A DNA stretch of 64,000 nt from contig JAHHIA010000001.1 of NCBI GenBank assembly GCA_019359045.1, positions 744,001 to 808,000 on the forward strand, given 5' to 3'. Position 1 is the first letter of the stretch; each line of letters opens with the position of its first letter. The notes beneath the pieces were generated by a model. That model had not been told where the DNA came from, ran no database searches, and was given only the letters and a program-made list of their open reading frames with translations. Below, one piece after another: positions 3,653-29,746 of this stretch. A program made the translations under genes and the position numbers. The stretch is from Scytolyngbya sp. HA4215-MV1. GTDB lineage: Bacteria; Cyanobacteriota; Cyanobacteriia; Leptolyngbyales; Leptolyngbyaceae.

Positions 3653-3663
3653 GGCTTTGTCTC

Positions 3664-6600
3664 TTTCGGCACCCTGTGAGGGATTTGGTGGTTTTGGAAC
3701 ATTCGACTCCCAGACCAAGGCAGCGCTGAATCAGCTCGTTTCAATCCCTGTGAGGGATTTGGTGGTTTTGGAACACTTCTACCGCGCTTTGTACTTCTTT
3801 CTCAGTGGTGTTTCAATCCCTGTGAGGGATTTGGTGGTTTTGGAACGTTTACGCAGACTTGGTTCAAAAAAACCAATTCGTTTCAATCCCTGTGAGGGAT
3901 TTGGTGGTTTTGGAACCCCCCATTGTAGCTCATGGTCATTGGTTGGTCATCAGTAGTGTTTCAATCCCTGTGAGGGATTTGGTGGTTTTGGAACCCCCTA
4001 AGTGCCCATGTTGCCTGATAAAGCCCTACTGTTTCAATCCCTGTGAGGGATTTGGTGGTTTTGGAACTAGCTTCTCTGCTATCTCATCTGTAACTCTATA
4101 AGTTTCAATCCCTGTGAGGGATTTGGTGGTTTTGGAACTGACTCGGAAGTAAATAAAGATGAAATCGTGTTCCTGTTTCAATCCCTGTGAGGGATTTGGT
4201 GGTTTTGGAACCACACTGCACAATCAACCAAAAGCGCTCGATCCATGTTTCAATCCTTGTGAGGGATTTGGTGGTTTTGGAACATGGGTGAGGGGGTCGG
4301 GGATGGGGAAGGCTTCGGTGTTTCAATCCCTGTGAGGGATTTGGTGGTTTTGGAACTAATCAGTGGGTATTTCACCCCTGAAAAATCAGTAGTTTCAATC
4401 CCTGTGAGGGATTTGGTGGTTTTGGAACCCAGCGCAAAGGGTTGGATGTGTGGGCGACAATGGGTTTCAATCCCTGTGAGGGATTTGGTGGTTTTGGAAC
4501 GGCTGAGGCGGAACGGCTTGGTATCGTTACATCTAAGTTTCAATCCCTGTGAGGGATTTGGTGGTTTTGGAACGAATTTGGATCTGAAGACATCTGAAGC
4601 CGAGATAGGTTTCAATCCCTGTGAGGGATTTGGTGGTTTTGGAACTTCACGTCCTTGTATTCTTGCCTTCTCTGCTCCATGTTTCAATCCCTGTGAGGGA
4701 TTTGGTGGTTTTGGAACATGCTGCAATGGCGAACTGAAAGGGTCGATCTTTTGTTTCAATCCCTGTGAGGGATTTGGTGGTTTTGGAACTTCCCGAAGCA
4801 AGCGCGGATCGCAAAAGCGTAGTGTTTCAATCCCTGTGAGGGATTTGGTGGTTTTGGAACTTTGCAAAGGGTTGAGCGGTGGAGTGAAGCAACTTGTTTC
4901 AATCCCTGTGAGGGATTTGGTGGTTTTGGAACCCCTGCCCCTTCACCCATACCCTCACCAGCCAACGGTTTCAATCCCTGTGAGGGATTTGGTGGTTTTG
5001 GAACGTTTGAGCGCTCGTATGGCGGTTCATGGAAAAACGTTTCAATCCCTGTGAGGGATTTGGTGGTTTTGGAACAGCAGTCTTTTAGCCCTAGCCAGGT
5101 TGTTTTCCTGTTTCAATCCCTGTGAGGGATTTGGTGGTTTTGGAACACCAGGGAACCAACGGTCAAGCTGAACGAAGGTGCGTTTCAATCCCTGTGAGGG
5201 ATTTGGTGGTTTTGGAACAACGCTGTCAACAGCATGGGAGATGAATTCGTACAGTTTCAATCCCTGTGAGGGATTTGGTGGTTTTGGAACAGGTCACTTA
5301 CCCATTTACCCGACGGCGATTTACTGGTTTCAATCCCTGTGAGGGATTTGGTGGTTTTGGAACGTCGAAGAGGAATTGCCGATCATCTCCGCGATCGCTG
5401 TTTCAATCCCTGTGAGGGATTTGGTGGTTTTGGAACCCCATCGAAGGCTAAAACCAATGGAATACTCAACCAAAGTTTCAATCCCTGTGAGGGATTTGGT
5501 GGTTTTGGAACCACAACCACGGGTAGGATATCGCCAGACAAACGATCGTTTCAATCCCTGTGAGGGATTTGGTGGTTTTGGAACTCTAGTGTGTAGAATG
5601 AGTATTCATTCGTGAACGGTTTCAATCCCTGTGAGGGATTTGGTGGTTTTGGAACGTCTCCATGCGGATCTGAGTGACAGCGCCTGTACGGGTTTCAATC
5701 CCTGTGAGGGATTTGGTGGTTTTGGAACACCCCATCAAGCACAGCAGTGAGGGTTTCAGGTTGGTTTCAATCCCTGTGAGGGATTTGGTGGTTTTGGAAC
5801 GATCAACAGGCCCGGAAGGCCGATGGCAGATGGAAGTTTCAATCCCTGTGAGGGATTTGGTGGTTTTGGAACCTAAAGGCACTCGTAGCGCGTTCAACAG
5901 GCTTCAGGTTTCAATCCCTGTGAGGGATTTGGTGGTTTTGGAACGTCTACGTTAATTGTATGAATTTGCAATTGCGCTGGTTTCAATCCCTGTGAGGGAT
6001 TTGGTGGTTTTGGAACACTGGGGAAGTCTCAGAAGTAGACGCAAAGAGTGAGTTTCAATCCCTGTGAGGGATTTGGTGGTTTTGGAACGCAGTACATATC
6101 CAGCTTGGAAGGGCAGCGCTTATTGTTTCAATCCCTGTGAGGGATTTGGTGGTTTTGGAACAGTACATATCCAGCTTGGAAGGGCAGCGCTTATTGTTTC
6201 AATCCCTGTGAGGGATTTGGTGGTTTTGGAACGCAGCAGTGGATGTATTTGGGCGGAATTGGGGAGGGTTTCAAGTTTCAATCCCTGTGAGGGATTTGGT
6301 GGTTTTGGAACAAGTACAACAGCAGCGGGTGTACATACAACTAATGTTTCAATCCCTGTGAGGGATTTGGTGGTTTTGGAACCAACTACGATATGATTGG
6401 GATAACAAGAGAGAGGGTTTCAATCCCTGTGAGGGATTTGGTGGTTTTGGAACGTTTCACGCCCACTAAACAAGCTGTGCGATGACCTGTTTCAATCCCT
6501 GTGAGGGATTTGGTGGTTTTGGAACTTCTCCAGTGGAACCCAGCGGACGGCAAAGGCATCGTTTCAATCCCTGTGAGGGATTTGGTGGTTTTGGAACACT

Positions 6601-9600
6601 TAAAACAGTTTTTCAGCCATCAACCCGATCTGGTTTCAATCCCTGTGAGGGATTTGGTGGTTTTGGAACGTTAGACGGATGCGCGGTCGCGAAGAAGCTT
6701 ACAGTTTCAATCCCTGTGAGGGATTTGGTGGTTTTGGAACCACTCCCGATTCACCCGTTCGATCGTCCATCCCAGTCGCGAAGAAGCTTACAGTTTCAAT
6801 CCCTGTGAGGGATTTGGTGGTTTTGGAACCTGTTGGCGCTGAATGGCTTGCTCCAAGGCAGCTAGTTTCAATCCCTGTGAGGGATTTGGTGGTTTTGGAA
6901 CCTCGAAGTCATCGGATGCCTGGCGGTGAATCCGCTGTTTCAATCCCTGTGAGGGATTTGGTGGTTTTGGAACCATAGCGGATTACAGGATAAAATGGCA
7001 AGCTGCCAGGTTTCAATCCCTGTGAGGGATTTGGTGGTTTTGGAACTTGGGTGCCTACAAGTGCCATATCAGGCTAGGCAAGTTTCAATCCCTGTGAGGG
7101 ATTTGGTGGTTTTGGAACAGTGTTCCGGTGAGGAAGACGATCTCCTCCCTGCTCACGGAGTTTCAATCCCTGTGAGGGATTTGGTGGTTTTGGAACTTTT
7201 CACGCAAGTACGATCGCCTGCTCTACCCACGCGCCAATGTTTCAATCCCTGTGAGGGATTTGGTGGTTTTGGAACCCTCCACGTTCCGCCCCACTTTCGC
7301 CCAAAAACGTCTAGTTTCAATCCCTGTGAGGGATTTGGTGGTTTTGGAACTCGTTCTGGCACCCCTGAGTACAACAAAGATGCAGGTTTCAATCCCTGTG
7401 AGGGATTTGGTGGTTTTGGAACATGAAAGCTTGAAGTGTGTTTCCAATGGAAACTTGTTTCAATCCCTGTGAGGGATTTGGTGGTTTTGGAACACCGTGA
7501 CCTATGGCGATGCACCGAATGAAGTGGGTTTCAATCCCTGTGAGGGATTTGGTGGTTTTGGAACCTCATCGAAGCGCTCCTTAGCTTGAGATTGCAATTC
7601 GTTTCAATCCCTGTGAGGGATTTGGTGGTTTTGGAACATGTGCCATTCCAGTTACCCGAGTAAGTCCGGGTGTTTCAATCCCTGTGAGGGATTTGGTGGT
7701 TTTGGAACTTGGCAAGCAGTCGCAACCCCAACACATGACCCTGGTTTCAATCCCTGTGAGGGATTTGGTGGTTTTGGAACTTGATTGAATGCAGATTGAG
7801 CGCTAGCGCCACCTGTTTCAATCCCTGTGAGGGATTTGGTGGTTTTGGAACAACCTTAGGCGTTCCCCCATGAATTAAAGATACCCTGTTTCAATCCCTG
7901 TGAGGGATTTGGTGGTTTTGGAACGACGATCGGACTTGCTAAAGCGGTTCAAAAGTTTGTTTCAATCCCTGTGAGGGATTTGGTGGTTTTGGAACTCATT
8001 TACAGATCGACGCTGAGACGTTGATCTCTTGGTTTCAATCCCTGTGAGGGATTTGGTGGTTTTGGAACGAGAAAACCCAGGGCGTTTCCCCCATGAATTA
8101 AAGAGTTTCAATCCCTGTGAGGGATTTGGTGGTTTTGGAACACGTAGCGCAAAGGGCGATCGCCAATGCTCTGTTCTACCCAGTTTCAATCCCTGTGAGG
8201 GATTTGGTGGTTTTGGAACGTAAAAGGCTCGACTTTATCCTCAGTGTTTCACAAAGTTTCAATCCCTGTGAGGGATTTGGTGGTTTTGGAACCTGATTAC
8301 GAGAAGCAATACAAGATCAAAATTGATGTTTCAATCCCTGTGAGGGATTTGGTGGTTTTGGAACTCCAACTTTGCCCGATTCAGATGAGATCTCACTAGA
8401 GTTTCAATCCCTGTGAGGGATTTGGTGGTTTTGGAACAAGACTTCATCCCACTTTCGGAGATGGAATTTCAGGTTTCAATCCCTGTGAGGGATTTGGTGG
8501 TTTTGGAACATTAAACGACCCGCCTCGAACTGATCATTCAGCAGGTTTCAATCCCTGTGAGGGATTTGGTGGTTTTGGAACGTTCGATTCTTTTGGCTCT
8601 AAGTGTCACGACAGTGTGTTTCAATCCCTGTGAGGGATTTGGTGGTTTTGGAACCCATCCTCATCAGTCTTGTTCCCCATCAGTTGATCCGTTTCAATCC
8701 CTGTGAGGGATTTGGTGGTTTTGGAACTCCATTAGTTAAACCGATCTCACTTTTAGCAGCTAGTTTCAATCCCTGTGAGGGATTTGGTGGTTTTGGAACA
8801 TCCTGCACCTGAGGACAGACGATCGCCCTAATTGGTTTCAATCCCTGTGAGGGATTTGGTGGTTTTGGAACCATCTTTTACTCGTTACTGCGACAACGCA
8901 CGATCGGGTTTCAATCCCTGTGAGGGATTTGGTGGTTTTGGAACCCCAAACAATGAGCTACGGCTCTCAATGTACAGACAGTTTCAATCCCTGTGAGGGA
9001 TTTGGTGGTTTTGGAACTAAAGTTTTATTAGCTACTTGCTCACTAACCGCATTAGTTTCAATCCCTGTGAGGGATTTGGTGGTTTTGGAACGCAACAGAA
9101 TGCTTTGCTTGCCCAGTTTGTCAAGCAGAAACATTGGAGATGGAACAAGCAGGTTTCAATCCCTGTGAGGGATTTGGTGGTTTTGGAACAACCCCAGGTC
9201 AAAATGAGACTGACCAGCGGCAAGTTTCAATCCCTGTGAGGGATTTGGTGGTTTTGGAACCTGGTTGGCGTCAAGACTCGCTGTCGCTCAAAGGTCTTGT
9301 TTCAATCCCTGTGAGGGATTTGGTGGTTTTGGAACTCTCGGACTGTCCTGGTTGCGCCAGCTTGTAGGTTCGGTTTCAATCCCTGTGAGGGATTTGGTGG
9401 TTTTGGAACGCAATTCTCTCCACACAAAAGCTTGCAATCTCTGAGTTTCAATCCCTGTGAGGGATTTGGTGGTTTTGGAACTTCATTACATTTGCCACGT
9501 CCCCGATGAAAAGAAAAGTTTCAATCCCTGTGAGGGATTTGGTGGTTTTGGAACATCGTTTTCAGGGGAATCGCGTTCGTCAAAATTCGTTTCAATCCCT

Positions 9601-12600
9601 GTGAGGGATTTGGTGGTTTTGGAACCAGTACATATCCAGCTTGGAAGGACAACGCTTATTGTTTCAATCCCTGTGAGGGATTTGGTGGTTTTGGAACGGA
9701 ATCAGGAGTCAAAGCCAGGGAGAGAAAATAACGTTTCAATCCCTGTGAGGGATTTGGTGGTTTTGGAACATAATTCCAAAAAGCAATTGTATAGAGCAAC
9801 TTATGTTTCAATCCCTGTGAGGGATTTGGTGGTTTTGGAACTGCGCTTGCCTCTACCCTGGCTCTCCCCAATCCAGTTTCAATCCCTGTGAGGGATTTGG
9901 TGGTTTTGGAACTTTTGACGGTGAGCAGAGTGACTTGGTGGGATACGAGTTTCAATCCCTGTGAGGGATTTGGTGGTTTTGGAACTAGTGATTGGCATCC
10001 TTCACCGTGGATCTCTAGAGGTTTCAATCCCTGTGAGGGATTTGGTGGTTTTGGAACACACGAACCCTCAGAGTAGCTTCAATGCCCATAAAGTTTCAAT
10101 CCCTGTGAGGGATTTGGTGGTTTTGGAACATCTACCGACCGCTACACCAGAAAACCTCAGAACTGTTTCAATCCCTGTGAGGGATTTGGTGGTTTTGGAA
10201 CGGCTCTGTAGCAGGCGGTGACTATATCCCGGTTGTGTTTCAATCCCTGTGAGGGATTTGGTGGTTTTGGAACCTGGAAGAAGCGGCTAACGCGATCCGC
10301 CATTATGTGTTTCAATCCCTGTGAGGGATTTGGTGGTTTTGGAACCCTGAGTACTCAAGCAATCCGGTAGGGTTTGCTCATGTTTCAATCCCTGTGAGGG
10401 ATTTGGTGGTTTTGGAACCTTCTATCAAAGTATTGGTTAGTTTGTAATTCTGCTAGTTTCAATCCCTGTGAGGGATTTGGTGGTTTTGGAACATCCGCTA
10501 CAAAGTTGATCGCGCCATTGGCAAAATGTTTCAATCCCTGTGAGGGATTTGGTGGTTTTGGAACCGAACACAGGTGTATTGTGGATCGATCTACTGGTAA
10601 GTTTCAATCCCTGTGAGGGATTTGGTGGTTTTGGAACTTTTGTTTTAAGGATGGTAAGGAGATCAGTCCAAAGTTTCAATCCCTGTGAGGGATTTGGTGG
10701 TTTTGGAACGCCTCAAACTCTGCTCTAGCCGTCTCAATGTCAGCAGTTTCAATCCCTGTGAGGGATTTGGTGGTTTTGGAACACCTGCGCCTGAATTTAA
10801 GGCGCGATTGGATGGTATTGTTTCAATCCCTGTGAGGGATTTGGTGGTTTTGGAACGTCTTGACAGCGACCATGCGGGTATCCAAGCGGCGGGTTTCAAT
10901 CCCTGTGAGGGATTTGGTGGTTTTGGAACATCTCCTGTATTTCTCGCTCCGTTACTCTTATGATGTTTCAATCCCTGTGAGGGATTTGGTGGTTTTGGAA
11001 CGTCCGGATCAGTAATGAGCCTTTTGGTGATCAGCCTGTTTCAATCCCTGTGAGGGATTTGGTGGTTTTGGAACCACTCAGCAGCCTATGGACAGTACAC
11101 TAACCAGGCCCGTTTCAATCCCTGTGAGGGATTTGGTGGTTTTGGAACTCCCTTAGCATCAGAGTAAGCAGCTAAGAACATTGCGTTTCAATCCCTGTGA
11201 GGGATTTGGTGGTTTTGGAACTCAGGGGTCTTATTATCCGTGGGGTCTGCCATAGGGTTTCAATCCCTGTGAGGGATTTGGTGGTTTTGGAACGTGAACC
11301 GGGGTTTAACAATTACGCTGAAATGGTCAGTTTCAATCCCTGTGAGGGATTTGGTGGTTTTGGAACGAGCATTGATCAGGCAATATCTCCATTCGCACAA
11401 CGGTTTCAATCCCTGTGAGGGATTTGGTGGTTTTGGAACCATATTGTTCGCATCCAAACTAGAAGTGTTAAGGATGTTTCAATCCCTGTGAGGGATTTGG
11501 TGGTTTTGGAACCACCCGATCCGGTAGGCGCAAATCCTTTATGTTTAGTTTCAATCCCTGTGAGGGATTTGGTGGTTTTGGAACGCAGTTCTTCATGTCG
11601 TTCACCCAGAGTGTCACCTGTTTCAATCCCTGTGAGGGATTTGGTGGTTTTGGAACTTGGAATGGGGTTTCCAACCATTTAATAAAGTAGAGGGTTTCAA
11701 TCCCTGTGAGGGATTTGGTGGTTTTGGAACCAGTTTGTATTAATACAAAATAAATTTGTATTATGTTTCAATCCCTGTGAGGGATTTGGTGGTTTTGGAA
11801 CCCTTTTCGTAGATTATTGAAGCCCTGACTTCACGCACGTTTGTTTCAATCCCTGTGAGGGATTTGGTGGTTTTGGAACTTCGATCGCCCTTTCCAGTAA
11901 CACTCGATCGACCCTGTTTCAATCCCTGTGAGGGATTTGGTGGTTTTGGAACTCCCCCTAAAAGCAGTCCCCGCCCTATTTGCAAGGAGTTTCAATCCCT
12001 GTGAGGGATTTGGTGGTTTTGGAACCAGGAACACTAGCGATAGTGGCAGCAGCAACAGCAGTTTCAATCCCTGTGAGGGATTTGGTGGTTTTGGAACCAT
12101 ATTACCGGGATTCTGGCAGCCGGAGGGAACAGTTTCAATCCCTGTGAGGGATTTGGTGGTTTTGGAACCCAAATTTTTCCTCACAAGCAGCAGCACAGCG
12201 ACGGTTTCAATCCCTGTGAGGGATTTGGTGGTTTTGGAACTTGCCATTCAGGAAGCTGCCAGTGTGGCTCCTGAAGTTTCAATCCCTGTGAGGGATTTGG
12301 TGGTTTTGGAACGATTACAAGCACTACTGGATCGGCAAGAGTCAGGAGTTTCAATCCCTGTAAGGGATTTGGTGGTTTTGGAACTTTGCCGGAGGGCTGT
12401 AAACTAAGGTTGGAGTTTTGTTTCAATCCCTGTGAGGGATTTGGTGGTTTTGGAACAAGATGTAGCGCCCGTAATGGCAGGGGCGATCGTTGTTTCAATC
12501 CCTGTGAGGGATTTGGTGGTTTTGGAACGTTTTTCGCCATCAAAACAACGATCGCCCTTATTGGTTTCAATCCCTGTGAGGGATTTGGTGGTTTTGGAAC

Positions 12601-15600
12601 GATTTAGAAACTTACGCCAGCAATGGTAGTGCTCTTGTTTCAATCCCTGTGAGGGATTTGGTGGTTTTGGAACGCTTTTAAGGATGGACGCCATGTTGAA
12701 AGCTTCATGTTTCAATCCCTGTGAGGGATTTGGTGGTTTTGGAACTTACTGGCAGTCAGGGTCACGTCATATCCTAGCTGTGTTTCAATCCCTGTGAGGG
12801 ATTTGGTGGTTTTGGAACCAACATGTCAACCTTGATCGCCTATTGCCTTAAGGTTTCAATCCCTGTGAGGGATTTGGTGGTTTTGGAACCGAAGCAATTC
12901 ACGATCCTGAGGTGCTTAAGCAAGGTTTCAATCCCTGTGAGGGATTTGGTGGTTTTGGAACCAACGGGCGGCGTATTCATGGTGAACGGGTAGATGGTTT
13001 CAATCCCTGTGAGGGATTTGGTGGTTTTGGAACGAACTAACTGCTGCCAATGTTTCGACCATTTTGGGTTTCAATCCCTGTGAGGGATTTGGTGGTTTTG
13101 GAACGGAAGTACTTACAACTGAAATAGTTGAAGCTTTTGTTTCAATCCCTGTGAGGGATTTGGTGGTTTTGGAACGCGGCAACTCTAGAGAAAAATACGT
13201 GTTTCTCATGGGTTTCAATCCCTGTGAGGGATTTGGTGGTTTTGGAACAAGAAAGAAGAAAAATTTGTCAGCGGTTGTATGCTGTTTCAATCCCTGTGAG
13301 GGATTTGGTGGTTTTGGAACATTAACCGACTTCCAAGTCATTTCTTTCATCAGGAGTTTCAATCCCTGTGAGGGATTTGGTGGTTTTGGAACCTGGGTTT
13401 GGAGGTTGTTCTTCCTCTTCCCGTCCTGCGTTTCAATCCCTGTGAGGGATTTGGTGGTTTTGGAACGAATGTCGATAAGTTGGCAAAAGCGCAGATTCAC
13501 GTTTCAATCCCTGTGAGGGATTTGGTGGTTTTGGAACACGCTACCCGGAGGTTCACGATATTGCCAATCAGTGTTTCAATCCCTGTGAGGGATTTGGTGG
13601 TTTTGGAACTTCTCCCAGAACATGCTCAGGGTTAGCGGTGAAGTGTTTCAATCCCTGTGAGGGATTTGGTGGTTTTGGAACATCGCTCAGATGAGTAGGA
13701 AGGCACAGGCTCAGGGTTTCAATCCCTGTGAGGGATTTGGTGGTTTTGGAACCGTCGCATGGCTGACATTTCCGATCAGTGGAAAACGTTTCAATCCCTG
13801 TGAGGGATTTGGTGGTTTTGGAACCGTATTCAAAAAAGTTTTTGTGCCGTCAGCCGATCAGTTTCAATCCCTGTGAGGGATTTGGTGGTTTTGGAACATT
13901 CGATACCTAAAGGCGTTTTGGCAATAATCTCGTTTCAATCCCTGTGAGGGATTTGGTGGTTTTGGAACCTTGCCGCGTGAAACAAGTTGTTATCTTCAGT
14001 CTGTTTCAATCCCTGTGAGGGATTTGGTGGTTTTGGAACACCCTCAAACGTTAGCCGAAATTATCGAGAATGTGTTTCAATCCCTGTGAGGGATTTGGTG
14101 GTTTTGGAACCTCAGATTCAATATAAGGAGTACCCTAAAATGCGTTTCAATCCCTGTGAGGGATTTGGTGGTTTTGGAACTCATCGGCAATATTTGTCAC
14201 AAGTGACATTAATGGTTTCAATCCCTGTGAGGGATTTGGTGGTTTTGGAACAAGCAAGCAGTAGAAATATTGAGATCTAATGATGCGTTTCAATCCCTGT
14301 GAGGGATTTGGTGGTTTTGGAACCTCATGAAACATCTTTTCAATTAGCTCGATTGTAAGTTTCAATCCCTGTGAGGGATTTGGTGGTTTTGGAACCCTCG
14401 GAACCTCAATGAACGTGAGGGGCACTGGATGTTTCAATCCCTGTGAGGGATTTGGTGGTTTTGGAACCAGGTAACAAGTTCAGAAACCACAGAAGCTCTG
14501 GTTTCAATCCCTGTGAGGGATTTGGTGGTTTTGGAACAGCTTTGTAAGCTCTGCTGTAGCCGTGTCTTTACCGTTTCAATCCCTGTGAGGGATTTGGTGG
14601 TTTTGGAACTAGCGGGTCTCAAAGCCATCATCATGCTTTAGGTAGTTTCAATCCCTGTGAGGGATTTGGTGGTTTTGGAACTCCCTGATCCAGGCTGGCA
14701 AGCCCTTATTTTTTCCAGTTTCAATCCCTGTGAGGGATTTGGTGGTTTTGGAACTGGTTTGAGTTTGGGTGATACCACCTCCACCGCCCGTTTCAATCCC
14801 TGTGAGGGATTTGGTGGTTTTGGAACTTTATTTCGTCGTCGGTTGCTAGCAGTGTTCCTTTGTTTCAATCCCTGTGAGGGATTTGGTGGTTTTGGAACTC
14901 CTGGCACCCCTGCCGATCTCCAAATTGATGAATTCTGTGAGGGATTTGGTGGTTTTGGAACTTTATTTCGTCGTCGGTTGCTAGCAGTGTTCCTTTGTTT
15001 CAATCCCTGTGAGGGATTTGGTGGTTTTGGAACTCGGCATTCTGAATTCTGCACACCCTGAGAATCGGTTTCAATCCCTGTGAGGGATTTGGTGGTTTTG
15101 GAACTTCTGTCCTAAATAATGGGTAGTTCCCATCTCTTTAGTTTCAATCCCTGTGAGGGATTTGGTGGTTTTGGAACTTCACACTCCAAAAGCCACGATT
15201 GTCCGAGTTAGCGTTTCAATCCCTGTGAGGGATTTGGTGGTTTTGGAACCAATCTCACCATTACGCACCTGACTGCACACATCCAAGTTTCAATCCCTGT
15301 GAGGGATTTGGTGGTTTTGGAACAAAGCTGCGTCTAGTGATTGCCCTGATAACTTTTCGTTTCAATCCCTGTGAGGGATTTGGTGGTTTTGGAACCTGCG
15401 GAGATGGCAAATGATCGATGCTCCTGAAATGTTTCAATCCCTGTGAGGGATTTGGTGGTTTTGGAACGGGATTCTCCGCGTTCTAAGCCGGAAAAAGATG
15501 ATGTTTCAATCCCTGTGAGGGATTTGGTGGTTTTGGAACCCCTCAATTAAAGGTAGATGGCAGGAAAGGAAGTTTCAATCCCTGTGAGGGATTTGGTGGT

Positions 15601-18600
15601 TTTGGAACCCGACACAGACTCAAAAAGCTCTAAGCGCTCTGAGTTTCAATCCCTGTGAGGGATTTGGTGGTTTTGGAACACCTCTAAATACTATCAGCCT
15701 GTTAACAGGCAAGTCGTTTCAATCCCTGTGAGGGATTTGGTGGTTTTGGAACTTCAGACGATTGCAAATGATGCCTCTGCAATATGCGTTTCAATCCCTG
15801 TGAGGGATTTGGTGGTTTTGGAACGTCGCGAACGGAAAAGGCGAACCCACAGACATATTGTTTCAATCCCTGTGAGGGATTTGGTGGTTTTGGAACCGGT
15901 GCTGTTCGCTTGATTGCTTGTTGGATTGGTGTTTCAATCCCTGTGAGGGATTTGGTGGTTTTGGAACGTTAAATCTGGATAAAGGTATTCCAAAACTGAT
16001 GATGTTTCAATCCCTGTGAGGGATTTGGTGGTTTTGGAACAAGAAAGCGGGAAAGGGAAAGGCTTGTATTGCCCTGTTTCAATCCCTGTGAGGGATTTGG
16101 TGGTTTTGGAACGCGTCTACATCAATTGTGTGGATTTGCAATTGCGATGTTTCAATCCCTGTGAGGGATTTGGTGGTTTTGGAACATGGTTATGGCTTTG
16201 CCATTTACCATCTTCATCTTGTTTCAATCCCTGTGAGGGATTTGGTGGTTTTGGAACGTACTACCTACTTGCAATTCCAATGTCTCAGGTTGGTTTCAAT
16301 CCCTGTGAGGGATTTGGTGGTTTTGGAACCTCGTGCCCGCGACCGTTTTAGGAGAGAGCGCCAGCTTGTTTCAATCCCTGTGAGGGATTTGGTGGTTTTG
16401 GAACTAGCTATTACTTCAGCACGATCATATCCATCTAATGTTTCAATCCCTGTGAGGGATTTGGTGGTTTTGGAACCAGCGATTCAGATTCAATCGATGG
16501 CTACCTTGATGTTTCAATCCCTGTGAGGGATTTGGTGGTTTTGGAACTATTCCCCGATGTGCCTAGAAATCCAAGATGCATGTTTCAATCCCTGTGAGGG
16601 ATTTGGTGGTTTTGGAACCTCTACTCCTAATTCTTTCTCAATGTTGCGAATAGGTTTCAATCCCTGTGAGGGATTTGGTGGTTTTGGAACTCATTACCTC
16701 GGTTAACATGATGTCTTGTAATATGTTTCAATCCCTGTGAGGGATTTGGTGGTTTTGGAACGCATAACCCGCACCATAGTCATCAATAATCAATGTTTCA
16801 ATCCCTGTGAGGGATTTGGTGGTTTTGGAACTAATCTGTCCGACCCTTTTAGGTGCTTCGTTTTTGGTTTCAATCCCTGTGAGGGATTTGGTGGTTTTGG
16901 AACCAGGGAGACAACCTCAGTATACGAATAACTATTGGTTTCAATCCCTGTGAGGGATTTGGTGGTTTTGGAACTGAATACTGGCTGAGTAATGCTCAGT
17001 TCCAGCAAGTTTCAATCCCTGTGAGGGATTTGGTGGTTTTGGAACATCCGGATCACTCTGGACTATCTATTGTCTAAGGGTGTTTCAATCCCTGTGAGGG
17101 ATTTGGTGGTTTTGGAACCTACCTCAATGATGGTAGGTCTTAGCACTGGCATTACGTTTCAATCCCTGTGAGGGATTTGGTGGTTTTGGAACCTCGCAAA
17201 TGGCGCGCAGCATCTTTATACATTAAGTTTCAATCCCTGTGAGGGATTTGGTGGTTTTGGAACTCCTGAAGCGATCGCGAGCGCGATCCTCAATATCACG
17301 TTTCAATCCCTGTGAGGGATTTGGTGGTTTTGGAACGTATTACCGTGATAATTGATATCACCCTTTTCTTTTGTTTCAATCCCTGTGAGGGATTTGGTGG
17401 TTTTGGAACCACCTAGAATGCTCAAAGAGTGACGTAATCCGAAGTTTCAATCCCTGTGAGGGATTTGGTGGTTTTGGAACCTTTATTTTTTTTACTAAAC
17501 CCCCTTTGGCTACAGATGTTTCAATCCCTGTGAGGGATTTGGTGGTTTTGGAACAAGTAAGCAGACATTTCTTTGGTAGCCAAAACTAAGTTTCAATCCC
17601 TGTGAGGGATTTGGTGGTTTTGGAACGCATTGTCCATAGCTAAATCACTCCCAATTCTTCCGTTTCAATCCCTGTGAGGGATTTGGTGGTTTTGGAACTG
17701 CAAAGGCGTATTCGATCTATGAATGAATCTACAAGTTTCAATCCCTGTGAGGGATTTGGTGGTTTTGGAACCTTGAGAAGAGGCTTAAAGAGTCGCTTGA
17801 GGATTTAGGTTTCAATCCCTGTGAGGGATTTGGTGGTTTTGGAACTCCTTGCAGGCAAGCTCAGTAAAGCTCAAATTCTTGTTTCAATCCCTGTGAGGGA
17901 TTTGGTGGTTTTGGAACGCTTCTCACTTGCAAGCACTAGTCAAAGAGTTTGTAGTTTCAATCCCTGTGAGGGATTTGGTGGTTTTGGAACGGAAATTGAA
18001 CCTTGCCAGTATCCCTGTCTGTACCATGTTTCAATCCCTGTGAGGGATTTGGTGGTTTTGGAACATTGAGACGTAGAAAAAGAAGTCATACTTTAATCCT
18101 TGTTTCAATCCCTGTGAGGGATTTGGTGGTTTTGGAACGCTAGCGCCCGGCGGGTTGTACGTCTACGTGACAGCGAGAGGTTACGTTTCAATCCCTGTGA
18201 GGGATTTGGTGGTTTTGGAACCTGTATTCCAGTTCAAAATCGCACGGGTCCCCTGTTTCAATCCCTGTGAGGGATTTGGTGGTTTTGGAACTATTTAGCA
18301 CTGGTATCAGTACTCAGATTGCTATTAAGTTTCAATCCCTGTGAGGGATTTGGTGGTTTTGGAACGTGTAAACGTAAAGTTTGAAACGTCAAAAGAAACA
18401 AGTTTCAATCCCTGTGAGGGATTTGGTGGTTTTGGAACCAATACAAGCCAATGCCACAGGATGATACGCTCTAGTTTCAATCCCTGTGAGGGATTTGGTG
18501 GTTTTGGAACTGGGAAGGTTCTGATCCATAAACCAATCAAACCCGTTTCAATCCCTGTGAGGGATTTGGTGGTTTTGGAACTTTTACCAGTTGAAAGAGA

Positions 18601-19592
18601 AATACAAAAAAGTGTGTTTCAATCCCTGTGAGGGATTTGGTGGTTTTGGAACCTTGGAACGCTCAACAGCTACCTGAAACTCGGTTTGTTTCAATCCCTG
18701 TGAGGGATTTGGTGGTTTTGGAACCGCAAGCTGAGTTGCAGGAAGCGCGTAACGATTCGTTTCAATCCCTGTGAGGGATTTGGTGGTTTTGGAACTACTT
18801 TCTGGATGACGATGACTTTGATTTAGTAGAGTTTCAATCCCTGTGAGGGATTTGGTGGTTTTGGAACCCCACAGTGGCAGAAGCACTCAGAGAATGTCCT
18901 AAAGTTTCAATCCCTGTGAGGGATTTGGTGGTTTTGGAACCCGTGCCCTGCTCGTACTCCCTCCACTGCTGACGGGACGTTTCAATCCCTGTGAGGGATT
19001 TGGTGGTTTTGGAACTCATCTCCCCTCCAAATATTTGATGATTTAATCTTGTTTCAATCCCTGTGAGGGATTTGGTGGTTTTGGAACTTTTCAGAGGCAT
19101 GGTTATACATGGCTGGCAGCAAGTTTCAATCCCTGTGAGGGATTTGGTGGTTTTGGAACGTTTATAGGAAGCTGTCGAAGCGGATCAGAAAAGAAGTTTC
19201 AATCCCTGTGAGGGATTTGGTGGTTTTGGAACCAATAGAGTGATGCGGTTCAATTAAAACGTCGCAAGGTTTCAATCCCTGTGAGGGATTTGGTGGTTTT
19301 GGAACGAGCACAGGCAGCATCAAGTAATCAAAGCCTAGAGTTTCAATCCCTGTGAGGGATTTGGTGGTTTTGGAACTTTTCTGATGACATACAACTCAGA
19401 CTATGTACAAAGTTTCAATCCCTGTGAGGGATTTGGTGGTTTTGGAACAGTTGGCAATGTCGTTGTAGTTATCAGGCCCGATGGGTTTCAATCCCTGTGA
19501 GGGATTTGGTGGTTTTGGAACTTGGCTGATCTTGCTTGCCTGCCAGGGCTGCAATGTTTCAATCCCTGTGAGGGATTTGGTGGTTTTGGAAC
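3664..19592 (-). CRISPR. giant CRISPR array, about 220 repeats, subtype I-D associated
   Basis: The repeat is 37 bases. Read on the - strand it begins GTTCCAAAACC and ends AGGGATTGAAAC, with a 7-bp stem AATCCCT/AGGGATT around a 3-base loop just before the ATTGAAAC handle that Cas6 would leave. By hand count there are about 220 repeat copies and 219 spacers, mostly 34-37 bases. Nearly all repeats are identical. Exceptions are the decayed copy at the left end (3664-3700, only the last 29 bases intact), one-base variants starting at 4247 and 12348, and a copy truncated to 27 bases at 14935-14961. Spacers of unusual length occur at 6741-6792 (52), 9092-9152 (61) and 18139-18184 (46). The decayed left end, the leader at the right end and the handle all indicate leftward transcription, co-directional with the cas operon, so the newest spacers are at the right. 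Confidence 0.99.
14827..14996. repeat. duplicated spacer flanking a truncated CRISPR repeat
   Basis: The 35-base spacer at 14827-14861 recurs identically at 14962-14996. Between them lie one complete repeat, another spacer, and a repeat that has lost its first 10 bases (14935-14961). The preceding sequence runs straight into CTGTGAGGG. This is best read as a local duplication with an imprecise junction inside the array. Confidence 0.9.
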
Positions 19593-19842
19593 GGCGGGCT
19601 TCTGAAAGCACGACTATATGCAGTTTTCAAGGTGCAATTGCGCGAACTAGCCAGATTATAGCATTCACACAACTTAGCGATCGGCAATCCAATTCGGCAT
19701 TTTAAGCCCCACCCCATACTCATCAAACATTTGAGAGATTGCGCGGATCGAATTTGTTCCAAAATCGACCCTATCCCTTTGCCATCAAGAGATTTCGCAG
19801 CCAAAATTGGAGATTGTGCCTCAACACCCACCCATCCGCGCA
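19593..19842 (-). promoter_or_regulatory. CRISPR leader with candidate extended -10 promoter
   Basis: This 250-base gap between the first (newest) repeat and the end of cas2 holds no credible gene and is where the array leader should be. On the - strand it contains TGCTATAAT, an extended -10 element (TATAAT read from 19660 to 19655, TG two bases upstream). A start near 19648 would give about 55 bases of leader RNA before the first repeat. No good -35 box is seen, which is usual for extended -10 promoters. The leader-repeat junction on the - strand reads CAGAAGCCCGCC then the repeat. Confidence 0.7.
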
Positions 19843-20115
19843 TCATACGAAAAAGATCGAATCATCCCGCACCTGTTCACCACCAATGCGCTCAATTTTG
19901 GCATGACAACATGCACACAAAAAATAGAAACGAATGCTGTCCTGCTCCGGCTTGATCAGTTTGCTGAGACGCGATCGCAGCTTGGCATATTGAGTATCCG
20001 TTAGTTCACACTCAAAAACACTGTATTGCATCCACTGACCATAGGACTTCAGAATCTTATGAATCTTGGTACGACGTTTGTCTTCGGAAATGTCGTAGGA
20101 GATGGCGATGTGCAT
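19843..20115 (-). CDS. cas2: Cas2, spacer-integration partner of Cas1
   Basis: Cas2 dimers bridge two Cas1 dimers in the spacer-acquisition integrase. The 90-residue product starts MHIAISYDIS, the first beta strand with the conserved YD aspartate. It continues with RRTKIHKILKSYG and YSVFECEL, all typical of the ferredoxin-fold family. An in-frame ATG 36 bases upstream (20151) would add 12 residues. The inner ATG is chosen because the family normally starts directly at this first strand. The longer start lies only four bases after the cas1 stop, so translational coupling could favour it. It is the last gene of the operon, followed by the array leader. Confidence 0.92.
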   Translation of the reverse strand: MHIAISYDISEDKRRTKIHKILKSYGQWMQYSVFECELTDTQYAKLRSRLSKLIKPEQDSIRFYFLCACCHAKIERIGGEQVRDDSIFFV

Positions 20116-20155
20116 GGGGAGACGGGTAAAGTTTTTGATGCATCGACTCATCGAC

Positions 20156-21178
20156 TCATTTCAACACTAACGGTGGATACTGTTCCGTTTCCCCCATTAG
20201 GTACTTTGCCAAGAGCCTGGATTGGATCTCAAACGCTTCCTGGTATGTGCATTGTTTGCCCATGACCGGGTGCTTAAACCGAGACTGTTTTTTTTGTTCA
20301 TACAAACGAAGAAACGTACGTCTGCCTTCATCCGATAGCGATACTGCTTGACTTAAAGGTTCCACGGTGAAATCAGCAGGAGTGAGCGATCGCCGATTGA
20401 TTGCCGCCAACACCACCGCATCCACCACTAGGGGACGGAATTCCTCCATCACATCCAATGCCAGAGAAGGACGACCATAGCGTTCGGTGTGCAAATAACC
20501 CAGATATGGATCAAAGCCAACAATGTTGATAGCACTTTCGATATCGTGCCGCAATAGCGAATAACCAAAGCTCAGTAGCGAATTGATGGGATCGGTGGGT
20601 GGTCGTCTCTGGCGCGTGGTAAAGGAAAACTCTTCAGCTCGGATGAGTTGTTGGAAACACCCAAAGTACGCCGCACTCCCTGCACCTTCTAATCCTCGCA
20701 GAGACTCAATCTTGTCTGTGGTATTGATGGGATGAATGGCTTGCTCCAGACGAGTGATACCCTGAACCAGCTTAGATAACGACTCCGAATTTTGATCCGT
20801 AGTTTCTCGTTGCACCCGCATCAGTGTATGGCGATAGTTTTTGAGCTTACCCCGAATAAACCCTCTGACCACATGCAAGGCTTGGGGTGATTCGCCGATC
20901 GCTCGCCATTGTGCCGATCGGACAAAAATATTTTTGGTTAGGGGTGGCTCCAGACGTCCTAGAAACCGCCCGGTCCCCGTGAGAAAGCTGAGCGGAATTT
21001 TACGCTCCAATAGCTCAATTAAGGCAGCAGGAGAAATTGTGGCGCGTCCTAAAACGACGACTCCATCCACCTTAATCATCGGGACATCCAGTAAGGTTTG
21101 TTTGTTTGCCCGCACCTGAAGTCGTTCGTCGATTTTGCCAATAAAAGCGTTGTCTTGAGTAATGTAGAGGGTACCCAT
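20156..21178 (-). CDS. cas1: Cas1, CRISPR integrase
   Basis: Cas1 is the metal-dependent integrase that inserts new spacers at the leader end. From the ATG at 21178 the protein is 339 residues, the usual length, and begins MGTLYITQDNAFIGK. The catalytic set is visible: E164 in GLEGAGSAAYFG, H230 in LHTERYGRPSLA, and D242/E245 in LDVMEEFRP. The upstream open frame adds 23 proline/leucine-rich residues that are simply the translation of a 16-base tandem repeat, so that longer start is rejected. The gene is downstream of cas4 and four bases from the longer cas2 start, consistent with one adaptation sub-operon. Confidence 0.97.
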   Translation of the reverse strand: MGTLYITQDNAFIGKIDERLQVRANKQTLLDVPMIKVDGVVVLGRATISPAALIELLERKIPLSFLTGTGRFLGRLEPPLTKNIFVRSAQWRAIGESPQALHVVRGFIRGKLKNYRHTLMRVQRETTDQNSESLSKLVQGITRLEQAIHPINTTDKIESLRGLEGAGSAAYFGCFQQLIRAEEFSFTTRQRRPPTDPINSLLSFGYSLLRHDIESAINIVGFDPYLGYLHTERYGRPSLALDVMEEFRPLVVDAVVLAAINRRSLTPADFTVEPLSQAVSLSDEGRRTFLRLYEQKKQSRFKHPVMGKQCTYQEAFEIQSRLLAKYLMGETEQYPPLVLK

Positions 21179-21186
21179 AGGAGTGG

Positions 21187-21234
21187 AGGGGTAAGGGAGT
21201 AGAGGGGTAAGGGAGTAGAGGGGTAAGGGAGTAA
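21187..21234. repeat. three tandem copies of a 16-bp unit between cas4 and cas1
   Basis: The unit AGGGGTAAGGGAGTAG occurs three times head to tail (21187, 21203, 21219; one substitution at the end of the last). It fills most of the 78-base gap between cas4 and the chosen cas1 start. Purine-rich tandem repeats of this type are common in cyanobacterial intergenic DNA. This one may have lengthened an originally shorter gap. Confidence 0.9.
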
Positions 21235-21256
21235 ACGGGGGATGCATCTACCCAAA

Positions 21257-21847
21257 TCACGATTCTTGATATTTTCTGACTTTCTCAACTGCTTGAGGCA
21301 TACACGATTGAAAGAGGCTGCATCCTTTGCAACGAGGAGTGTAAACGGCAGGTGGCATAGTGCCAGTGTGTAGTAGGGTTCGTATTAAGTGGAGGGTGGC
21401 GATCGTGGCTTGACGCAAGGCAGCTGAAATTTCAACTAACTGTCGCTGATGGGACTGAGCATAGTAAATGTAGCCCTGGGCAACGGGTTGTCCAGTCATT
21501 TCCTCTAAACAGAGCGCTTGGGCACAAACTTGGAGTTCGTCGTTATCAAACTCTCCCCGATGGCTGCGTTTGTATTCCACGGGATACCAGTGACCGTCAT
21601 TGGCTTCAATCAAATCCGCTTTACCAATCAAGCCATCGCGATCGGACTTGAGCCACACGGCTCGAACCTGCCAGACCTCTTCCCGATGCCCATCGCCGAC
21701 AGTGTGAACGCGATCGTGCAGGCTAGTGCCTTCAATGGTGTATTGGTTATCGGTAAAGTCGCCAATACAAAACATGCGCCAGCAGCGGTGCGGGCAGTAG
21801 CTGTATTGGTTGAGAGCGGCGATCGGAACATAGTCCAGTTCATTCAT
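21257..21847 (-). CDS. cas4: Cas4, RecB-like nuclease of spacer acquisition
   Basis: Cas4 trims prespacers and helps select the PAM together with Cas1-Cas2. This 196-residue protein has the expected iron-sulfur cysteines: C18 and C22 in YCPHRCW, and three near the end in PRCKGCSLFQSC. Between them are the RecB nuclease motifs: a histidine after GTSLHDRVH, GKADLIE, the PVEYKRS strand, and the QVCAQALCLEE helix. It overlaps the end of cas6 by eight bases, so translation is probably coupled. Length and motif order match family members. Confidence in the identity is high. Confidence 0.95.
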   Translation of the reverse strand: MNELDYVPIAALNQYSYCPHRCWRMFCIGDFTDNQYTIEGTSLHDRVHTVGDGHREEVWQVRAVWLKSDRDGLIGKADLIEANDGHWYPVEYKRSHRGEFDNDELQVCAQALCLEEMTGQPVAQGYIYYAQSHQRQLVEISAALRQATIATLHLIRTLLHTGTMPPAVYTPRCKGCSLFQSCMPQAVEKVRKYQES

Positions 21848-22676
21848 TGGATTTCTTCGATAGAAGCCGCCTCGCCATCCCTAGCCCCATTGGGGTTTTA
21901 CGTCCAACGCCACTGTAGAGGGCAAAATCAGCTAGTGTATTGATTTGTTTGATGATGAGTGGGTCTACATCGCCTAAGATACGGAAGTTCATTGCTCCAA
22001 CACAGCCAATGAACTTGCTGCGGGAGTCAGTCACCAGTTCAGTTCGGATATCAAAAAAACTGGGGAAAATGGATTCCAATAGCGTATCAGGGAATTCGAT
22101 GCCGCTGTATTGATTCCATCGCCGTCGCAGGCTGTTGAACACATGCTCCCGTGTCGGTAGGGCAGAGTCATATTGGCTCTGACGAAAGCTGGTAGGAGTG
22201 CAAAAGGTGAGGTCAATTTGGCGATCGCGATCGGAGGCTTGCTCATAAAGTTGGGCATACGTGGAAAAATTTGCCCAGAGTTGAGTGGATTGGGGCGTGC
22301 CTAAGACACTCGTGATCTGCAAATCGGCGGGACCGAGATGCCAGGGATGGTTGGGATTCAGATTGAGCCAGAGTGGGGTGAGATTGCCAAAAAGGGTATC
22401 GTCCAGTAGGGAAATGCGCCACCAGCAGGGAGTTTCGGCAGGAATGGGACGGGTGTGATCCCATTGCAATTGCTGTTTGCCCTGCGATTTCTGGGTAACT
22501 TGCAGAGGACTGAGGGTGAAAGCCTTGTCGATCGTCTGGGCATGGAGGCGATCGCCCAATTCTTGATCAACGGAGCTAACCAGGGTTAGAAAAAGGGCAT
22601 GGAGGTGCTTGCCAGTCAGGTATCCCGCTGGAATGGGCGAGGTGGGGATGAGGTTGAGAATCAGGCTATGGGGCAT
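21840..22676 (-). CDS. cas6: Cas6 of the I-D system, pre-crRNA endoribonuclease
   Basis: This enzyme cuts the repeat RNA at the base of its stem and leaves the 8-base handle. The 278-residue protein shows LTFCTPTSFR (RAMP strand, about residues 160-169) and the terminal glycine-rich loop SGVGRKTPMGLGMARRL (about 255-271). It lacks the HTH tail of the other Cas6 at 98-1225 but shares the family core. Its place inside the operon between cas3 and cas4, co-directional with the array, makes it the most likely processing enzyme for the roughly 220-repeat transcript. Confidence 0.95.
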   Translation of the reverse strand: MPHSLILNLIPTSPIPAGYLTGKHLHALFLTLVSSVDQELGDRLHAQTIDKAFTLSPLQVTQKSQGKQQLQWDHTRPIPAETPCWWRISLLDDTLFGNLTPLWLNLNPNHPWHLGPADLQITSVLGTPQSTQLWANFSTYAQLYEQASDRDRQIDLTFCTPTSFRQSQYDSALPTREHVFNSLRRRWNQYSGIEFPDTLLESIFPSFFDIRTELVTDSRSKFIGCVGAMNFRILGDVDPLIIKQINTLADFALYSGVGRKTPMGLGMARRLLSKKSNE

Positions 22677-22703: not shown

Positions 22704-24992
22704 TCAAGTGATCCAGAATTCTTCTTCATCCATCAAGCGAATTTTGACGCCATTCATCGCAGCTGTCATAATGCCAGCTAACCCAGGGAAGATTGTGTAA
22801 TTCTTCCTGGCGTCATCACAAACGACTGAAATTGAATATGATTCAATGCCTTGTTTGCGCAGTCGAAAAATCACACCCTGATTTGCCATTTCTGATACAA
22901 CAACTCCTGGCAACCAGGACTTCTCTAGCTCTTTGAGTAAAGGGGTTGGAACAGTAGAACCTTTGAACTGTCTTCGGATTTGACAATGCTGAAAAGCAGT
23001 CAGTTTATTTAACTGAGTTCTGGAGAAAGCTTCAGAGCTACCGTAATAGCGTAGGTGAAAACTTAATTCATAGGTCTCTCGTGCACGATCAACAATGGCA
23101 ATCCCGTCACTATCGCGAACAAACTCATAGTTCCTGAGCAAATGGATTGGATCAAGCTGAGTTTCTTCGGATAGATCAAGTAAGAACCCTTGTGGGTCTC
23201 GGATGCACAGGCTCTCAAACAAGTTAGAGCGAAACTGAAACAACGGTGCATAGCTAGCACTAAAGACAGAAGCAAAGTGCTTAAGTTGAGTTGCGACTTC
23301 AGCATCTTCTCGAAATAACTTTTCAAAGCGGCTTAGGGGAACTTGCTTTGTCTTGAGCAGTTCCCAATCTTCAGGCGATTCGCTTTTGAGAAAGGCTGCT
23401 GTGATCGCCCATTTTGAGTGACCTTTAACAAATTTGAGCGGGTCTTCAGCAGTATCTTGCTCTGGTGCTGTGGCAATCGACTGTGCTGCTTGTAACGCTC
23501 TCATCCGCTGCTGATAATATTTCCAATCACGATTGCCGCCCAATGCCGCCTTCAAAGTCTCAAAGAGCTTTGTTACCAGGTCCGCTTGGGGTAATGTCTC
23601 CAATAGCTCCTCTAGCATGAGCATGGGACGGGCAGCTTCTAGAAAGGCTTCTGACTGCCAGTAAGCTCTGAGAAAGGGACGTTCAAGCGCTTTGAGTTCT
23701 TGCAGCTTGTCTTTCAAGACATCTCGCCCACTAGTTTCAGCCAAGGCGGCTAGACCTTCATCCCAGGCTCTTTCTGGAAGATAGGCGATCGCATAAGATG
23801 GAATTTCAGTTTCTTGTTTGCCGAGTACTCGTCCAACCCGTCCAATTCGTTGCCAGAATGCTGCACGATCGCGGGCTGAAAAAACCAACCAATCCAGGTT
23901 TTGACGTGAAGGTGCGGGGTGTCGTTCAAAGTTAAACCCAACATCCACTGTACTGGTGGCTAGAATGACCTGCCGCTGGGCTGACTGAAGTCGCTCTAGC
24001 TGAGGGGTAGAGCCATGAATCCTACCAATCCGATCAGCTAATCCTTGTGCTTGAAGTAACTTGGCTAAATCATTAATCTGCACTTTAGAGTCCAGAATGA
24101 CTGCTCCATTTTGATCGGGATACGCTTCTAATCGATTAGTTACTTCCTTGGCAAGTTCTGCTAACAGTGCATCTCGTTCTAGCTGGGGACGAATTTCTAA
24201 GTGGACGGTGCCTTGTGATAAAACTTGACGCGCTCCCAATTCCCCATTGATTTGCTTAATGCGGACTCCGCGACTTTCCAACACTGCCAAGGCCTTTTCG
24301 CAGTCAGGTTCCGGTGTGGCGGTTAAGAGAACCACTCGTCTACCTGCTGCAAAGAAACCGAAGATACTCAGATAGGCTAAGTAAAACAAGAGACCAACGA
24401 GTTGCTTGGCATCATATAAATGAAACTCGTCAAAGATGATGGTTGAGAATTGGGTGTAGAAACTGGTTGCGACATTGATTTTATCAAGCCGATGGTAGCT
24501 AAAGAAGGTCGCGTAGTAGAAGATATCAGGATTTGTCACCAGCAGCAGAGGCCGGTTTTCGCTTACGTCTGGAAAGATTGTTGCAGGGTTCCTCAAGAGG
24601 TTATAGAGTTTCTCACCTGGACGCGCTCCGACACGATCGCTTGACCACGTTCTCACTTCTTTAGCAGACACCGCCTTAACAATGTGAGGCAAGCCTGCAT
24701 CTGTGACAAATGCTGCTGCCGCCTTCGTTTGCTGTTCAATCAGAGCATTGGTTGGTGCAATATAAACAGCATTTCTGGTGGGTTGGTGCAGCAATACGGT
24801 CAAGCCTGCTTTAGTTTTGCCTGTTCCGGTTGGAGCTAAGTCCAGAATAATATCGTGATCTTTTGCAGCCTCAAAGACATCAACCTGGTGTTGTAAGGCA
24901 TTCTGAAGGCAATCTTTTAGTTCAGGTGGAGGCTCATTGCAGGCGGCAATGCTTCTCGGCTCTAGGTGGATTGAAATCGGGTCATACGTCAT
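22704..24992 (-). CDS. cas3: Cas3 helicase (Cas3'), HD-less, subtype I-D
   Basis: This is the ATP-dependent helicase recruited by the I-D effector to unwind target DNA. From the ATG at 24992 it is 762 residues. Walker A is APTGTGKT (53-60), the DExH motif is DEFH (188-191), then LLTATPE, and motif VI is RIGRVGR. No HD nuclease domain precedes the helicase core. This fits subtype I-D, where the nuclease is on Cas10d. The start overlaps the csc1 stop by 11 bases; a longer frame to 25064 would extend into csc1 without adding family features. In Synechocystis I-D cas3 comes first in the operon; here it follows csc1. Confidence 0.93.
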   Translation of the reverse strand: MTYDPISIHLEPRSIAACNEPPPELKDCLQNALQHQVDVFEAAKDHDIILDLAPTGTGKTKAGLTVLLHQPTRNAVYIAPTNALIEQQTKAAAAFVTDAGLPHIVKAVSAKEVRTWSSDRVGARPGEKLYNLLRNPATIFPDVSENRPLLLVTNPDIFYYATFFSYHRLDKINVATSFYTQFSTIIFDEFHLYDAKQLVGLLFYLAYLSIFGFFAAGRRVVLLTATPEPDCEKALAVLESRGVRIKQINGELGARQVLSQGTVHLEIRPQLERDALLAELAKEVTNRLEAYPDQNGAVILDSKVQINDLAKLLQAQGLADRIGRIHGSTPQLERLQSAQRQVILATSTVDVGFNFERHPAPSRQNLDWLVFSARDRAAFWQRIGRVGRVLGKQETEIPSYAIAYLPERAWDEGLAALAETSGRDVLKDKLQELKALERPFLRAYWQSEAFLEAARPMLMLEELLETLPQADLVTKLFETLKAALGGNRDWKYYQQRMRALQAAQSIATAPEQDTAEDPLKFVKGHSKWAITAAFLKSESPEDWELLKTKQVPLSRFEKLFREDAEVATQLKHFASVFSASYAPLFQFRSNLFESLCIRDPQGFLLDLSEETQLDPIHLLRNYEFVRDSDGIAIVDRARETYELSFHLRYYGSSEAFSRTQLNKLTAFQHCQIRRQFKGSTVPTPLLKELEKSWLPGVVVSEMANQGVIFRLRKQGIESYSISVVCDDARKNYTIFPGLAGIMTAAMNGVKIRLMDEEEFWIT

Positions 24993-29618: not shown

Positions 29619-29746
29619 CGGGGAATACTTGGGCTGAATACAGAGGACTATTAACCGAAAATGTACGTGACTGGTTGCGATGTATCCATCATGGCAGCAC
29701 AATAGAAGAGTGACAAGTACAAAGTGTACGTACAAATGGAGCGTTA
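29619..29746. promoter_or_regulatory. divergent promoter/operator region between cas10d and the WYL regulator
   Basis: This 128-base gap must hold the promoters of both the cas operon (leftward) and the regulator (rightward). It contains a perfect palindrome TGTACGTACA (29725-29734) 13 bases before the regulator's ATG, and a second TGTACGT at 29662-29668. TACAAA also occurs twice 13 bases apart (29718 and 29731). These are good operator candidates for the ribbon-helix-helix/WYL protein. A weak - strand promoter TTGTCA-17-CATGAT may drive cas10d. Confidence 0.6.

Follow-up and report, generated by a model that had tools for sequence, protein, structure and literature searches.

Spacers with a common start suggest repeated capture of one protospacer in a cyanobacterial type I-D CRISPR array

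In a 64,000-nt stretch of Scytolyngbya sp. HA4215-MV1 DNA (the window), a CRISPR (clustered regularly interspaced short palindromic repeats) array adjoining a type I-D cas operon carries three spacers of one site, here site A, that begin at the same base and end raggedly. We consider it quite likely that the same protospacer was captured at least twice, and probably three times, with each capture anchored at a GTN protospacer-adjacent motif (PAM) and the youngest copy derived from a diverged relative of the same element. Independent recapture of site A is well supported; the GTN PAM at this site, the separateness of the capture events and the diverged donor are what we infer.

Results

The array occupies positions 3663..19592 on the minus strand and comprises 219 spacers and 220 repeats of 37 nt, 216 of them identical. 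Because its low end is closed by a degenerate repeat at 3663 and the minus-strand I-D cas genes follow past its high-coordinate end, the array reads from high to low coordinates, with its oldest spacers at the low end, from which we number spacers starting at 0. Site A comprises spacer 33 (6089..6124, 36 nt), spacer 34 (6162..6195, 34 nt) and the leader-nearer spacer 81 (9626..9660, 35 nt), all on the minus strand. On the plus strand all three end in CGCTTATT and begin with GCAGTACAT, AGTACAT and CAGTACAT, respectively; spacer 81 differs from the other two at two bases, GGACAACG for GGGCAGCG. Read in leader orientation, spacer 33 is AATAAGCGCTGCCCTTCCAAGCTGGATATGTACTGC, spacer 34 is the same sequence minus its last two bases and hence identical to spacer 33 over its whole length, and spacer 81 is AATAAGCGTTGTCCTTCCAAGCTGGATATGTACTG. 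All three start at the same base, and their far ends lie 1-2 nt apart, giving the common PAM-side end and ragged far end by which recapture is recognized. Local-alignment scores for the three pairs are 58, 60 and 68, as against a best score of 27 in 5 shuffled spacer sets. An initial annotation, made from the sequence alone, had given these positions and lengths exactly to the base, and the fixed end, varying opposite end and two substitutions in the third spacer that it described are confirmed in the sequence; it did not mention that spacers 33 and 34 are adjacent. Array polarity would make spacer 81 younger than spacers 33 and 34.

The protospacer of site A was not found in phages, plasmids, IMG/VR, genome contigs or up to 386 genomes of the phylum, collections that cover part of existing sequence and may lack records very close to the window, so that its absence from them is weak evidence. 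With the 36-nt spacer as query, blastn returned nine phage records, only partial matches with E >= 1, and no plasmid record. Exact matching of degenerate and wobble patterns for site A gave no match in IMG/VR, and the one pattern run against genome contigs gave none there; degenerate patterns for site B, a second site described below, gave no exact match in IMG/VR. Only the three array copies of site A were recovered from 42 genomes of the order with up to 3 mismatches and, with the wobble pattern, from 386 genomes of the phylum with up to 2, and the best 25 matches listed among spacers of other arrays included none to site A. The same protospacer searches yielded no diverged relative carrying spacer 81's two substitutions. 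Such failure is unsurprising because, in the part available to us of one analysis, matches are reported for only 11% of I-D spacers (PMC8482600). In the absence of a protospacer, we tested the interpretation within arrays instead. Searches with the two halves of the array gave 6 and 9 phage records and 5 and 7 plasmid records, the short matches being weak; the plasmid matches include Kovacikia and Leptolyngbya, and the long matches look like other CRISPR arrays, the one examined being that of Kovacikia (L012). Separately, one short stretch of Nostoc phage YongM (MT426122, 62757-62873) is matched piecewise by both array halves, suggesting that this phage may carry a CRISPR array built on a related repeat.

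For the within-array test, regions beside Csc2 genes were taken from the order and the class, and the plasmid array L012, found by similarity, was added, on the assumption that the I-D genes next to an array are those that serve it. The order contains 21 Csc2 places, of which 19 had their regions fetched, one is the window's own and one was omitted; the class contributed 90 further places, with 71 regions fetched and 19 omitted, mostly for short downstream sequence or a fragment match. Script extraction gave 65 arrays with 3268 spacers, and after L150.0, L071.0 and L110.0 were dropped before the pair scan for an unclear repeat or orientation, the final survey held 62 arrays, 3238 spacers and 158,384 within-array pairs. 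The array finder retained 217 of the 219 spacers of the window's array. Repeats end in GGGATTGAAAC in 46 arrays, the window's among them, in GGGACTGAAAC in 14 and otherwise in 2.

Fifty-two pairs reached the score limit: 13 exact copies, the pair of spacers 41 and 42 discussed below, and 38 others, to which the end and PAM counts are confined. In 33 of the 38 the two spacers share a strand, 14 of these pairs having identical starts, and in the remaining 5 they are on opposite strands. Counted by site, with site A's three pairs taken as one, 10 sites keep only the start, 1 keeps only the far end and 2 keep both ends with mismatches; 10 of the 12 same-start sites come from arrays whose repeats end in GGGATTGAAAC. 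Under symmetric trimming, start-only and end-only sites should be equally numerous, and under duplication both ends should be kept; the excess of start-only sites is significant (p = 0.012). Four same-strand pairs, site B among them, are shifted by 1 nt, which fits the single-nucleotide slips of the Synechocystis I-D module as given in the accessible part of a review (PMC10212523). One further pair, spacers 11 and 17 of L119, has a common start with an inner insertion, to which the ungapped method assigned a shift of -3, and its readout was counted as a miss. A fixed PAM end with a ragged far end is thus a general pattern in arrays near Csc2.

These counts bear most directly on duplication within the array by recombination or slippage, followed by far-end deletions and point mutations, which we regard as an unlikely origin of site A. 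Exact duplicates certainly exist, including a block of seven within the 13 exact-copy pairs, in array L129, and spacers 153 and 155 of the present array, and a review, in the part accessible to us, treats repeated blocks as duplications (PMC8047081). Moreover, spacers 33 and 34 are direct neighbours that agree throughout their 34 common nt, and duplication with a 2-nt loss would give the same result. Yet a duplicated spacer retains both ends, and three lengths would not follow from duplication alone; later deletions should strike either end, whereas the survey sites keep the start ten times to one. Spacer 81 stands at a distance of 47 spacers, without any copied neighbour, and has two substitutions in 35 nt, as against 2 in all 8066 nt of the array's full-length repeats. 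The preference of the initial annotation for independent capture over array duplication is thereby supported.

At the mutation rate of those repeats, which omits terminal and truncated repeats and assumes that repeats and spacers mutate alike, the Poisson probability of two later mutations in one spacer is 4e-5. Two post-capture mutations in spacer 81 are therefore unlikely, and the likely source of this spacer is a relative of the original element that had diverged. The initial annotation's proposal of a later encounter with such a relative thus stands as far as later mutation is disfavoured, though the relative itself was not recovered. Both substitutions are synonymous in one reading frame (peptide NKRCPSKLDMY), but this synonymy is weak and was rejected as strong evidence: 26% of random double changes are synonymous in some open frame, and the two candidate frames share their third positions.

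An all-against-all spacer comparison revealed a second, more diverged revisited site in the same array, site B, which was absent from the initial annotation. Its older copy, spacer 31 (5945..5979, minus strand), shows 5 mismatches in 34 to the younger copy, spacer 171 (16113..16148, minus strand), and the two start 1 nt apart; the peptide is mostly kept (AQLQIHTINVD and SQLQIHTIDVD). Within this array the three mismatch values do rise with distance, from 0 at a separation of 1 to 2 at 47 and 5 at 138-140.

Kept peptides are also what would be expected if different, unrelated donors shared only this stretch of a conserved protein gene, since both the synonymous substitutions at site A and the largely preserved peptide at site B resemble differences between homologous genes. 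We consider this very unlikely for site A, where 33 of 35 nt agree, third positions included, pointing to close relatives, and where the failure of codon-degenerate and wobble patterns to match anything in IMG/VR and genome contigs argues against a motif common in those collections.

The survey also allows the PAM to be read from the arrays themselves, since in two situations, overlap of related spacers with an offset of 3 nt or more and placement on opposite strands, the sequence of one spacer includes the 3 nt that precede the start of the other. GTN precedes the spacer start in 15 of 25 such readouts, against a background of 0.045 (binomial 1.4e-14; some pairs yield two readouts, and the 25 are not wholly independent). 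The count is 14 of 19 among readouts with agreement over the first 8 nt, 8 of 11 in identical overlaps and 11 of 19 in arrays whose repeats end in GGGATTGAAAC; at far ends GTN appears in 2 of 14 readouts. The single readout from the window's array is of this type: spacers 57 (7852..7887) and 60 (8069..8104), both on the minus strand, overlap at offset 6, and within spacer 57 the first bases of spacer 60 follow directly on GTA, although this pair also diverges downstream. These data support the identification of the fixed end as the PAM end in arrays near Csc2, as the initial annotation had supposed for site A. An anchor unrelated to any PAM, for instance a position at which the element tends to break or be nicked, is an extremely improbable account of the shared end given these readouts and the type I-D machinery, even though the PAM of site A itself has not been seen.

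Several observations nonetheless weigh against recapture from a GTN PAM with a diverged donor. The protospacer of site A, and hence its PAM, was not seen in any collection searched; 10 of the 25 readouts are non-GTN; and a clear rise of divergence with array distance had to be rejected (Spearman 0.32, p = 0.20, 18 near-same-start pairs). To these are added the adjacency of spacers 33 and 34, the assumptions behind the repeat mutation rate and the weakness of the synonymy.

We propose that the Cas4-Cas1-Cas2 machinery captured site A anchored each time on the same GTN PAM, which would lie before the start AATAAGCG. Cas4 would cut at the PAM and so fix that end, while a host nuclease would trim the far end loosely to give spacers of 34-36 nt. 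Spacers 33 and 34 may stem from one infection or from two close ones, and the youngest copy, spacer 81, would represent a later capture from a diverged relative of the element.

The operon adjoining the array is a complete type I-D system, with the effector genes cas10d, csc1, csc2 and cas3' and the adaptation genes cas1, cas2 and cas4 all present. On the minus strand, and listed by ascending coordinate, a presumed leader (19593..19842), so called from its position between the last repeat and cas2, is followed by cas2 (19843..20151, Cas2d profile), type I-D cas1 (20156..21247, TIGR04093, above its cut-off), cas4 (21257..21847, TIGR00372), cas6 (21840..22676, TIGR01877), the type I-D helicase gene cas3' (22704..25064, TIGR03158), csc1 (cas5; 24982..25785, TIGR03159), csc2 (cas7; 25789..26820, TIGR03157) and cas10d (26874..29735), which matches Cas10_Id at 1430 bits and is without an NCBIfam match. 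Cyanobacterial profiles among the Cas matches, together with the array's matches to Kovacikia and Leptolyngbya, point to a cyanobacterial host. Divergent from cas10d lies a gene for a WYL-domain protein (29747-30610), a possible regulator of the operon, and on the opposite side of the array is a second cas6-like gene (98-1225) with a helix-turn-helix-type match at its C-terminus.

The array also contains over-long spacers. Spacer 42 (6741..6792, minus strand) is 52 nt long: its opening 18 nt repeat the head of the next older spacer, 41 (6670-6703), and the other 34 nt form an insert enclosed by an exact direct repeat of 55 bp, equal to the repeat plus 18, an oversized target duplication. Among survey spacers of at least 43 nt that have an older neighbour, 8 of 61 share their first 7-18 nt with it, compared with 0 of 3115 shorter spacers (Fisher 1.2e-14, with the limits of 43 nt and a shared prefix of 7-30 nt set after seeing the data), and the reverse case, in which the older neighbour is the long one, gives 0 of 62. 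Minus the shared part, the eight spacers measure 31-38 nt. This arrangement would fit a second integration step inside the older spacer, with gap filling duplicating the repeat and the head of that spacer, and such spacers resemble traces, left in natural arrays, of second integrations that landed at the wrong position. The other 53 of the 61 have no shared prefix, including two of the three in the window (46 and 61 nt); the 61-nt one, spacer 74 (9092-9152), is the longest in the array and has no prefix in common with its older neighbour.

Other irregularities involve the repeats. A 99-bp exact direct repeat (14753..15033, minus strand) flanks the 36-nt spacer 154; its unit consists of a repeat, a 35-nt spacer and 27 nt of the next repeat. 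Spacers 153 and 155 are identical, and on its leader side spacer 154 is bordered by a repeat copy truncated to 27 nt. The structure could have arisen from a single integration spanning 99 bp or from an undersized integration of 27 bp followed by recombination. Spacers 35 (6233-6274, 42 nt) and 111 (11802-11842, 41 nt) begin in leader orientation with TTGAAAC and AAAC, respectively, copies of the repeat's last bases that could reflect either slippage or chance. In survey array L129, seven consecutive spacers recur exactly 23 positions later, a block duplication in which both ends are kept.

Discussion

Recapture from one PAM is expected of type I-D adaptation, and site A offers a clear instance, in nature, of this known kind. 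A kept start with a ragged far end is the ordinary recapture signature in this subtype, as its recurrence in arrays near Csc2 illustrates. Recapture of this form can be separated from duplication, which keeps both ends, a distinction that matters wherever array history is reconstructed from duplicates. More broadly, the rules of I-D adaptation can be read from natural arrays by within-array comparison, an approach that works even where the viruses of the host are unknown. Among open-licence titles and the beginnings of abstracts, a scope with subscription papers mostly outside it, we found no report of PAM and end processing being read from overlaps within I-D arrays.

Related spacers also cluster in array time. 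Thirteen of the 36 related survey sites have their members within 6 array positions, where 4.0 are expected and none of 5000 simulations reaches 13, a clustering that naive capture during one epidemic would also be expected to produce. Among identical overlaps, recapture at the same PAM, with 5 cases to 8 at a different one, appears more frequent than PAM density would lead one to expect, but not significantly so (p = 0.07 if GTN density is taken as 1/16 and 0.17 with the measured value of 0.045). We regard as doubtful the idea that I-D systems undergo primed or interference-driven adaptation that tends to return to used PAM sites; if this were true, natural I-D arrays would record the PAM, how precisely Cas4 cuts and how the virus drifts between encounters, all without a virus database. 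According to the accessible part of the I-D review, data on priming are lacking (PMC10212523).

The closest known system is the Cas4-Cas1-Cas2 module of Synechocystis, from which, mainly through work in E. coli, I-D adaptation is known according to the same part of that review (PMC10212523). There, naive adaptation follows the same end rules: Cas4 removes the PAM, which is GTN, trimming at the opposite end is left to an unknown nuclease, and most spacers measure 35 nt, with a spread of 5-6 nt and single-nucleotide slips (PMC10212523). Whereas those rules come from one module studied mainly in E. coli, here they are read from natural arrays by way of spacers from the same site. Repeats that arise by array duplication, as described in the accessible portion of the review that treats them (PMC8047081), likewise place related spacers more than once in an array, but they keep both ends, in contrast to site A, which keeps its start, has a ragged far end and carries substitutions in one copy. 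The over-long spacers have their own counterpart in the type II-A system of Streptococcus thermophilus, in which, as far as the available part of that study goes, off-ruler second-site integration attacks inside the older spacer, 8 nt past the repeat, and partly duplicates it (PMC6895254). In that system the effect is reported for altered repeats only and not for the wild type (PMC6895254), whereas here apparent partial duplications of 7-18 nt occur in natural arrays near Csc2.

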